From a virus: 34,813 nucleotides of DNA. Positions 5,465 through 24,067 of the stretch are shown one piece after another. Each line of letters begins with the position of its first letter. The first letter of the stretch is position 1. The position numbers were made by a program, and so were the translations under genes. The stretch is taken from positions 1-34,813 of the IMG/VR virus record IMGVR_UViG_3300030060_005610; one strand, given 5' to 3'. The notes below the pieces were generated by a model. It was given only the letters and a program-made list of their open reading frames with translations. It did no database searches and had not been told where the DNA came from.

Positions 5465-5648
5465 CTGATTCTCCTAATGTTTTGTTAAACTTCATTATTA
5501 CATCATTTAATTCACCATCACTTAAATCATTAATTTTAAAATGTGGCGAATCATTCTGTACTTCTAGTTGATGTAGTGGTTTGCTTTTATGATATAAGCC
5601 TAAATTTGCCCATATAAGGAACTTTTTTATTATACTTATAGTGAACAT
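5436..5648 (-). CDS. Hypothetical protein (70 aa)
   Basis: Small protein with a mildly hydrophobic N-terminus (FTISIIKKFLIWANLGLY) and a helical acidic C-terminal half. Its ATG has a strong TTAGGAG site. That site is part of a small hairpin, CCTAA-GAG-TTAGG on this strand (5669-5657), which could modulate translation. I do not recognise the family. It is coupled by overlap to the resolvase-like gene. Confidence 0.6.
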   Translation of the reverse strand: MFTISIIKKFLIWANLGLYHKSKPLHQLEVQNDSPHFKINDLSDGELNDVIMKFNKTLGESDAEQIQREG

Positions 5649-5809
5649 GGTATTCTCCTAACTCTTAGGTGTAAAAGCCTTGTTTTTAAAATGTCTATCA
5701 TATCTTTAGTGATCTCAATATTATAATCGGTAATTTTTCCTAAATTTTTTTGATAATCTTCAATCATTATCTCATATGTTTCTATTACTACATGGTTTTT
5801 TTCTTTCAT
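5636..5809 (-). CDS. Hypothetical small protein (57 aa)
   Basis: A 57-codon frame starting MKEKNHVVIETYEIMIEDYQ and ending LRVRRIPCSL, with an AAAGGAT site before the ATG like other genes of this operon. It is mostly helical and charged. It overlaps the next gene by 13 bases. It lies 17 bases downstream of the candidate structured RNA at 5827-5933, which may control it. No family recognised. Confidence 0.55.
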   Translation of the reverse strand: MKEKNHVVIETYEIMIEDYQKNLGKITDYNIEITKDMIDILKTRLLHLRVRRIPCSL

Positions 5810-5826
5810 TGTATCCTTTGTTTTGT

Positions 5827-5933
5827 ACGGACTGATGCGGAAGGCAACATATACATATAGATTTGACTCCTCAATATAGTTCTATACACTTCCGCACTAT
5901 CTAGTAGTTACCAACAACTGACGAACAGTCCGC
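5827..5933 (-). ncRNA. Candidate structured RNA or cis-regulatory leader (nested two-stem element)
   Basis: On the minus strand an outer stem GCGGACTG (5933-5926) pairs with CAGTCCGT (5834-5827), eight pairs with one G-U. An inner stem TGCGGAAG (5896-5889) pairs perfectly with CTTCCGCA (5843-5836). The 3' sides of the two stems are separated by a single T, so they can stack coaxially. The 29-nt 5' linker can form a small hairpin (AGTT-GTTGGT-AACT), giving a three-way junction. The inner loop holds TTGAGGAG, a ribosome-site-like sequence. The element is more GC-rich than its surroundings and lies just upstream of the 57-aa gene. Function is unknown; a regulatory leader or a small RNA are both possible. 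Confidence 0.5.
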
Positions 5934-6002
5934 TTTGTTATGTAAGGAGTTTTTATCCTGCAACTTCCAGCCAGTAAATTTTGAAAATGAGCCAAGCCAC
6001 AT
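5901..6002 (-). CDS. Possible 33-aa ORF overlapping the structured RNA
   Basis: An ATG-started frame (MWLGSFSKFTGWKLQDKNSL and onward) runs into the 5' part of the candidate RNA structure and ends at a TAG inside it. An AGG lies six bases before the ATG. It could be a leader peptide whose translation opens or closes the structure, or it could be chance. Low confidence. Confidence 0.25.
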   Translation of the reverse strand: MWLGSFSKFTGWKLQDKNSLHNKADCSSVVGNY

Positions 6003-6013
6003 TCAAACCTGAC

Positions 6014-6208
6014 TCATTTTCTTTTCGTTCTCTCCCAGAGTTTCTTACCACTTTCTCTCCTAGCGCAACTCTCACAAATTATTTGTTCTTCCCATTCCAC
6101 TTCTTTAAACATAGCCTTCATTAAACTTTTATCATCTTTATACATATGTGTTCCATATTTACTACACATATCGCATTTACTATCGAGTTTGCCTAAATAA
6201 TAAATCAT
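6014..6208 (-). CDS. Small zinc-knuckle protein (64 aa)
   Basis: I choose the ATG at 6208 because a GGAGT site lies seven bases upstream; the longer frame from 6247 lies inside the preceding gene and has no such site. The protein carries two Cys pairs, CDMC and CESC, separated by about 30 residues, so a single zinc-binding site is likely. The C-terminus is basic (RRESGKKLWERTKRK). DNA or RNA binding is possible. The stop codon lies in one arm of an inverted repeat (GAAAATGAG, 21-nt loop, CTCATTTTC; 5979-6017). Confidence 0.6.
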   Translation of the reverse strand: MIYYLGKLDSKCDMCSKYGTHMYKDDKSLMKAMFKEVEWEEQIICESCARRESGKKLWERTKRK

Positions 6209-6644
6209 CTTTTTTACTCCATTTAACTGCAATATTATCTGCAACATTAATAGGCAAAAGATAACCTTTACTTGTTTTTGTTTCTGTATTTTTATATTTA
6301 TTTTTTTTATGTAGAGTTTTTAAAGTACGGATTGGAAATTTCCAATAATTATCATAATCTCCAATTAAATATTCTTCAGATTTATCTTTTCTATATATGC
6401 CACTTTCAGTCCAATTCTTAATATTTTCATTTGTTTTTTCATGAGTTTCAATATATAAATTTCCTGTTTTTTTATAATTACAATCTAATTTAATTTCAAT
6501 ATTTAAATTATTTTCTCCAACTTCAAATTGAAATGTTTTAGTTTGATAAAAAAACATATTTATACCTTTAGATTGATATAATTCTTGGATAAATGTAGCA
6601 TATTTATCTCCTTTTTCCATCATTTTATCATAATATAAGGTCAT
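6180..6644 (-). CDS. PD-(D/E)XK nuclease-like protein (154 aa)
   Basis: The start at 6644 makes a four-base ATGA overlap with the methyltransferase stop, with GGGGA upstream; a start at 6668 would lie wholly inside that gene. The middle holds LNIEIKLD followed by KKTGNLYIE. This arrangement is typical of a phage PD-(D/E)XK-like family in which E-x-K (E50, K52 in this numbering) is catalytic and TGN-x-x-x-E follows. Glu and Asp residues in the first helix could supply the remaining metal ligand. Tight coupling to an adenine methyltransferase suggests they act on the same DNA. A nuclease is my best guess, not proven. Confidence 0.55.
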   Translation of the reverse strand: MTLYYDKMMEKGDKYATFIQELYQSKGINMFFYQTKTFQFEVGENNLNIEIKLDCNYKKTGNLYIETHEKTNENIKNWTESGIYRKDKSEEYLIGDYDNYWKFPIRTLKTLHKKNKYKNTETKTSKGYLLPINVADNIAVKWSKKDDLLFRQTR

Positions 6645-9563: not shown

Positions 9564-9654
9564 TTATTTCCTTTCATTTGTAAGTAACCTACAAATACAT
9601 CTATATTTGTATGGTAGTTTTAATGTTAATTCCTTTCATTGTTTATCGAAGAAC

Positions 9655-9684
9655 AAGAGCCTTTCATTAGGCTCTTTTTCTTTT
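9655..9684 (+). terminator. Hairpin followed by T-rich run, antisense to the operon
   Basis: AAGAGCC (9655-9661) pairs with GGCTCTT (9670-9676) around an eight-base loop, followed by TTTCTTTT on the plus strand. The T-run is on the plus strand although all nearby genes are on the minus strand; read leftward the hairpin is followed by a weaker GTTCTTC. It could stop antisense transcripts or attenuate the leftward operon before erf. Confidence 0.5.
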
Positions 9685-9709
9685 CAAAATAATATCCTTA
9701 TTTATAATT

Positions 9710-9835
9710 CTAACTTGCATAGTTTTTTATCAAATCTATCAATTTTTGTTTGATAGTAATATTATCTTTTGCAGTTTTAACTTTTAGTTTAGTCCATAAG
9801 TCAGAATCAACTTGCAGTAAATATTTTTTATCCAT
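9710..9835 (-). CDS. Small ribbon-helix-helix-like protein (41 aa)
   Basis: A 41-codon frame: MDKKYLLQVDSDLWTKLKVK, then TAKDNITIKQKLIDLIKNYA and a final Ser. The strand (YLLQV), a first helix (DSDLWTKLKVKTAK) and a second helix (TIKQKLIDLIKNY) match a minimal Arc/CopG-type DNA-binding fold. A GAAAGGAATAAA leader precedes the ATG. It could be a transcriptional regulator of the early region. Confidence 0.65.
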   Translation of the reverse strand: MDKKYLLQVDSDLWTKLKVKTAKDNITIKQKLIDLIKNYAS

Positions 9836-9846
9836 TTTATTCCTTT

Positions 9847-23293: not shown

Positions 23294-24067
23294 ATGGCGA
23301 AAGTTTTAAAAAGAGCAATCGTTACACCAGATAAACATTTTCCTTTACATTCACAACCTGCTATAAATTGTGTTATACAGACTATAGAAATTATAAAGCC
23401 TGACATATATGTAGATTTGGGCGATAGTGGAGAATGGGGTAACTTTTCGCATTGGAAATGGAAAAGAAAAAAAAGACCACCATTAGAAGTAATAATACCA
23501 ACATTAGATCAAGACGTTAATGATGTTAATAAAGGTATGGATCAAATAGATGAGGCGTTAGATAAGGCAGGATGCGAAACTAAACACTTTATTGAAGGTA
23601 ATCACGAACTATGGTTAGATCAGTTTGTAGAAGAACATCCTTACTTGCCTCAGTATAAGCCACAGAATTGTTTGAAGTTAAAGGAGCGTGGATATAAATA
23701 TCATCCTTGTGGCAAGTTTTTAAAGATAGGTAAATTAAATTTTTATCATGGACATTTGTATGGAGGTCAGTATCATACTGCTAATCATCTAAGAAAGTTA
23801 GGTGCTAATGTTATGTATGGTCATTGGCACGACATCCAACAAATGAGTGCTACACATATAGACGGACAAAAGTCAGCTTGGAGTATAGGTTGTTTAAAAG
23901 ATATGTCCGATGCTAGTAATGAGTGGTTAGGTGGTAGAGAGCATAATTGGTGTCATGGTTTTGCAATAGTAGACTTTTTTGAGAAAGGTTACTTTTCTGT
24001 ACATCTTATGCAAATTATAAACGGAGTTACAAGCCTTTATGGAGAAAAGATAGATGGCAATGTCTAA
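23294..24067 (+). CDS. Calcineurin-like metallophosphoesterase
   Basis: A 257-aa protein with the metal-ligand series of calcineurin-like phosphoesterases: D13-x-H15 (VTPDKHFP), GDSGE with D44, GNHE with N103 and H104, HGH around 152-154, and GHWH with H177 and H179. It carries Trp-rich and Lys-rich insertions (FSHWKWKRKKRPP). Substrate unknown; candidates are DNA ends, nucleotides or cyclic nucleotide signals. It sits in the lysis cassette instead of the replication genes, which is unexpected. AGAGGTAGG precedes the ATG. Confidence 0.85.
   Translation: MAKVLKRAIVTPDKHFPLHSQPAINCVIQTIEIIKPDIYVDLGDSGEWGNFSHWKWKRKKRPPLEVIIPTLDQDVNDVNKGMDQIDEALDKAGCETKHFIEGNHELWLDQFVEEHPYLPQYKPQNCLKLKERGYKYHPCGKFLKIGKLNFYHGHLYGGQYHTANHLRKLGANVMYGHWHDIQQMSATHIDGQKSAWSIGCLKDMSDASNEWLGGREHNWCHGFAIVDFFEKGYFSVHLMQIINGVTSLYGEKIDGNV

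Follow-up and report, generated by a model that had tools for sequence, protein, structure and literature searches.

The window analysed here, the whole 34,813-nt stretch of IMG/VR record IMGVR_UViG_3300030060_005610, carries on its minus strand an early operon encoding DNA methyltransferases, an Erf-like annealing protein, a RusA-like resolvase, an HNH endonuclease and a NinB-like protein. Among the gaps that separate main genes of this operon, the second longest (positions 5810–6013, 204 nt) lies between a 77-aa gene directly upstream (6014–6247, minus strand) and a 57-aa gene directly downstream (5636–5809, minus strand). Both genes are small and lack a family, and the latter has a relative in L114. 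The list of open reading frames, the gap table and the folding statistics indicate that a minus-strand RNA fills the whole gap. The fold z of the whole intergenic RNA (5822–6024) is −3.73, with 0/200 shuffles as good. The GC content is 0.42 in the RNA, compared with 0.30 in its surroundings, as an earlier note had remarked, and 0.31 in the window. The longest of the gaps separating the operon's main genes (9564–9846, 283 nt) could hold another element, and includes a plus-strand terminator-like hairpin (9655–9676).

The earlier note had proposed a candidate new structured RNA at 5827–5933 (minus strand), made of two nested 8-bp stems with one unpaired base between their 3' sides. Both stems are present: the outer pairs GCGGACTG (5933–5926) with CAGTCCGT (5834–5827), the inner pairs TGCGGAAG (5896–5889) with CTTCCGCA (5843–5836), and a single unpaired T at 5835 separates their 3' sides. 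This 107-nt piece alone has a fold z of −2.67 against dinucleotide shuffles, 3/200 of which equal it. Homologues of the neighbouring genes led to three near-identical versions of the intergenic region (94–99% identical) and to one distant relative, L087/L114, with the same gene order. In this relative both stems are rewritten (GTAGGGA/TCCCTAC and GGAGAGG/CCTCTCC) with the same single T between them, and the architecture of this 3' domain is kept, with unrelated sequences, in the window, L114 and L106.

A further hairpin (5983–6021, minus strand; arms 5983–5994 and 6010–6021) starts at the upstream gene's stop codon, and L114 has a hairpin of other sequence at the same place. In addition, UUUGAAUGUG (5998–6007) and UACAUAACAAA (5934–5944) may pair as a stem, P0 (5934–6007, minus strand), with nine pairs and a 1x2 internal loop. 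This tentative P0, read from the sequence, would cross the upstream hairpin and form a pseudoknot. At the equivalent site L087/L114 has CCTTGTTAT/ATAATAAGG.

The other features that had been pointed out in the two-stem domain were overrated. The third hairpin (AGUU/AACU) exists, but comparison lends it no support: its fourth pair becomes C·A in L100 and L102, and its remaining pairs are invariant. The ribosome-site-like TTGAGGAG is indeed in the inner loop, but is unlikely to be used because it is missing from the loop of L114; the 57-aa gene has its own AAAGGA ahead of its ATG. A 33-aa leader reading frame (5901–6002) does overlap the RNA, but it is not what is conserved, because in 58 of 60 members stop codons interrupt the frame within 60 nt of the core. 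What the earlier note missed was the upstream hairpin and a 29-nt core at 5946–5974, so that the conserved heart of the RNA is located just outside the coordinates it had assigned.

The core (5946–5974, minus strand) is composed of strand A, CTGGCTGGAAGTTGCAG, a G, and strand B, ATAAAAACTCC. It is the sole copy in the window at up to three mismatches, and the block is unchanged in L087/L114. Its stem S2 pairs GGA(A)GUU with AACUCC, and a CUG/CAG pairing would make it a possible H-type pseudoknot; the CUG/CAG pairing and the inner S2 pairs are invariant in all members, so comparison neither supports nor refutes them. The family consensus is CUGGCU-NN-AAGUUGCAG for strand A and AUAAAAACU-N'N' for strand B, where N'N' pairs with NN, and the only varying positions are NN/N'N', the K position and the last bases of B. 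This invariance is partly due to scans that fixed the core, and joint changes elsewhere would be missed. Scans were run with core positions 1–10 freed and, separately, with three A-strand positions or all S2 positions freed; beyond known members, the scan with the three A-strand positions freed returned only chance matches in coding sequence. Around the core are one or more variable hairpin domains, which in the window are the upstream hairpin and the two-stem domain. Comparison shows a two-strand core whose flanking helices vary freely with their pairing retained.

Scanning with the core pattern recovered 23 viral contigs; the same 23 came back when the pattern was shortened so that its 3' part alone was fixed. 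A scan with strand A only gave 93 stretches, which were read individually and comprise real members and chance matches in coding sequence. The class has at least 69 distinct members, all in uncultivated viral contigs, many of them linear fragments. In the contiguous form strand A is followed by strand B (22 distinct members, the window, which lacks P1, among them), and the final scan, with S2 free, added nine further members of this form, each with joint changes in the outer S2 pairs. In the insert form a hairpin, P1, lies between A and B (13 members, of which L126 and L129 have a slightly different B strand). In the circularly permuted form (25 members) B precedes A and P1 is the closing stem, in the layout GGTAAC-AG-TATAAAAACTC-[P0 hairpin and more]-ATTGCCTGGCTGGAAGTTGCAG-GA-GTTACC. 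By inspection, L200, L206, L208 and L211 appear to have a P0-like hairpin after B and a separate outer stem closing the whole; in an automatic search, the P0-like hairpin beats shuffles only in L211. The core is found in at least two circularly permuted orders.

Two smaller elements recur near the core. The inserted P1 of L135, L139, L145, L158 and L126/L129 has a conserved loop of its own, GGGGATAATAAAGCC, whereas the sequence of the stem that bears it varies; this is a putative second sub-motif. GACGAAT or its complement ATTCGTC occurs in L105, L110, L113, L117, L139, L145, L185 and L106, with a TTCGTC version at 5919–5925 of the window, and might be a kissing or protein site.

The covariation check that the earlier note proposed is passed by the wider family. 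Across the 20 rows of the permuted set, all 10 of the 10 P1 pairs show changes on both sides, and 32 cells are changed on both sides, compared with 10 in shuffles (0/500 shuffles); this covariation is destroyed when the pairing partner is slid. S2, in 12 distinct rows, is 100% paired, with 13 double changes compared with 4.6 in shuffles (0/500), and its outer two pairs covary as GG/CC, TC/GA, CC/GG, GT/AC, GA/TC and AG/TT. The compensatory changes expected of a structured RNA thus exceed controls in both helices. The P0 of the permuted form also varies with its pairing kept (TAGATAGTA/TACTATCTG, TAAATAGCA/TGCTATTTG, TAGCAAATA/TATTTGCTG), and the insert-form P0 is paired with changed sequence in L145, L139, L181 and L189.

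The RNA matches no Rfam family. A scan of the window and 18 related loci against Rfam 15, also proposed earlier, gave no matches at the gathering threshold, including none to hammerhead or twister models, and only sub-threshold chance matches at a relaxed E-value. No member was found in 50,697 phage records, where BLAST of the core, the permuted core and the GGTGAGCA type returned partial or chance matches only; BLAST of the core against plasmids likewise gave no member and only partial or chance matches. The core, searched in its GG form only, is absent from 84,980 GTDB species genomes, in which the one match was a chance occurrence inside a thiolase-like gene.

Several specific identities were set aside. 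A sigma-54 promoter (TGGC..TTGC) has its spacing off by one and is excluded by the permuted forms. A host attachment site is contradicted by the absence of the GG-form core from the 84,980 genomes and of an integrase among the proteins scanned. A ToxI-like antitoxin pseudoknot is disfavoured because permutation would not yield the same processed ends. Identity with the published HRIMA candidates, compared by description rather than by alignment, is unlikely because almost all of those are confined to metatranscriptomes.

All but one of the 69 members (68/69) lie on the dominant coding strand, and 46 of 47 records have one copy. The exception, IMGVR_UViG_3300030451_002683 (104 kb), has copies L131 and L169 53.3 kb apart and is probably a doubled assembly of one genome. 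In 23 genomes sampled, usually 7–10 kb of codirectional genes precede the RNA and 2–5 kb follow it, with some contigs ending before either limit; its place is thus mostly within the final third of the early operon. The neighbouring genes differ, those downstream being unrelated across members and mostly small unknowns, and in many members the RNA ends 10–30 nt ahead of a Shine-Dalgarno sequence and ATG. At the BLAST level the window's lineage has few proteins in common with a group of 16 genomes united by their portal, capsid and terminase, and the RNA therefore crosses structural lineages. No protein family is common to all 23 sampled genomes, and thus no obligate protein partner was found. 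A metallophosphoesterase occurs in 19/23 and a DnaB-like helicase in 18/23 of these RNA-bearing genomes, although the former is possibly merely common in such phages; that of the window (23294–24067) is phrog_221. In a close relative, IMGVR_UViG_3300030372_003559 (L092, L096), the two ends of the contig each hold part of a RusA-like gene, and because of this the genome, of about 36 kb, seems circular or circularly permuted.

We conclude, with a probability of about 0.9 that leaves the mechanism aside, that these loci represent natural structured RNAs of a new class, transcribed together with the early operon of the phage. The class appears to be previously undescribed, with no Rfam match, and occurs as one copy per genome in dozens of viral contigs. 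Neither a linear DNA signal nor a coding function can account for a reversal of A and B that leaves the pairing intact. Accidental structure with conservation imposed by a short coding frame is scarcely credible: although the 33-aa frame overlaps the RNA in the window and the core can be read as TGWKLQ, the stops in that frame and the covariation of P1 and S2 contradict it, and the conserved short reading frame expected of a leader-peptide attenuator is not seen. A replication origin, packaging site or recombination site would fit a single element in the replication region of each genome; a DNA-level role is nevertheless very improbable given that A and B swap order between forms with RNA pairing kept, and that the outer S2 pairs covary. 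A metabolite riboswitch or a leader controlling the gene directly downstream is improbable as well. The pseudoknot-like A-rich core and the closeness of many members to a Shine-Dalgarno sequence and ATG are suggestive of one, and H-type pseudoknot riboswitches such as preQ1-I similarly combine a short stem with loop-tail pairing via an A-rich linker ending ...AAAAACU. However, preQ1-I has different conserved bases, and the genes downstream of the present RNA are not queuosine genes. Riboswitches are disfavoured because the downstream genes are unrelated, rather than belonging to one pathway, and because the Shine-Dalgarno sequence is unpaired in the window fold; no terminator switch or other expression platform is apparent, and no Rfam riboswitch matches.

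Two roles for a structured RNA deserve more weight, both of them unlikely on balance. One is a cis protein-binding element on the early transcript, such as an antiterminator resembling put or the binding site of a phage regulator. It would account for a near-invariant core that occurs once per operon, co-directionally and irrespective of the downstream gene, and core invariance beyond the outer S2 pairs could reflect recognition by a protein, with the caveat that the scans partly fixed the core. Small ribozymes are usually less invariant than this core. HK022 putRNA is a precedent, a known cis-encoded RNA of early phage operons for which the next gene is likewise irrelevant, but put is about 70 nt with two stem-loops near early promoters (PMC9378689), whereas the present RNA has circularly permuted forms and, in most genomes, lies towards the operon's end. 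A put-like antiterminator, expected just after an early promoter with terminators ahead and to bind the beta' zinc-binding domain of RNA polymerase, is disfavoured because of this position and because no minus-strand terminator-like site lies between the RNA and the operon's end. The other role, somewhat less likely again, is a trans-acting noncoding RNA processed from the early transcript, for instance a blocker of a host function. An RNA that takes up a whole intergenic gap, has several hairpin domains and is common to phages with different structural genes is compatible with it; yet no target or partner is known, no promoter of its own is evident, and permutation needs no free ends, whereas a processed RNA usually has fixed ones. 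GOLLD and ROOL, large ornate RNAs, are similarly phage-encoded and multi-domain with unclear function (PMC12286853), but the present RNA is much smaller, with a different core and no Rfam match.

Slightly ahead of the protein-binding and trans-acting roles we place self-cleavage or processing, because hammerhead and twister ribozymes, 5S rRNA and group II introns all have naturally permuted forms on record, and tmRNA, tRNA and SRP genes offer related cases (PMC10085705). Here the RNA would fold as an independent tertiary module and, either as a self-cleaving ribozyme or as a processing element, would cut the polycistronic early mRNA or mark it for cutting, and so detach the operon's final cistrons from the replication genes that precede them. 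The cutting or marking step, taken alone, is a tentative proposal; that the RNA is a new class of self-cleaving ribozyme, found in two or more circular arrangements and cutting the early message, is a shade more tentative. Like hammerhead and twister, the RNA has a small conserved core, freely varying helices and natural circular permutations, and is intergenic in phages (PMC3088659, PMC10085705); its core sequence, however, is unrelated to theirs. The combination of a conserved core, covarying helices and circular permutations is found here, but is no more than suggestive, as permuted forms of 5S rRNA and group II introns also exist, and in a published search ten ribozyme-like non-hammerhead candidate motifs failed to cleave (PMC10085705). 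The window form, which has no P1 and only a tentative P0, also counts against the overall explanation.

Because few RNAs in the open-access literature, notably hammerhead and twister, are known to be naturally permuted, a near-invariant core that is permuted, backed by covariation and restricted to uncultivated phages makes a strong candidate for a functional RNA of a new kind. That phages differing in their structural genes carry it as a single copy suggests a function required by most of them towards the end of the early operon. If the cleavage proposal is true, a ribozyme carried once per genome and cutting the early message would represent a new self-cleaving class.
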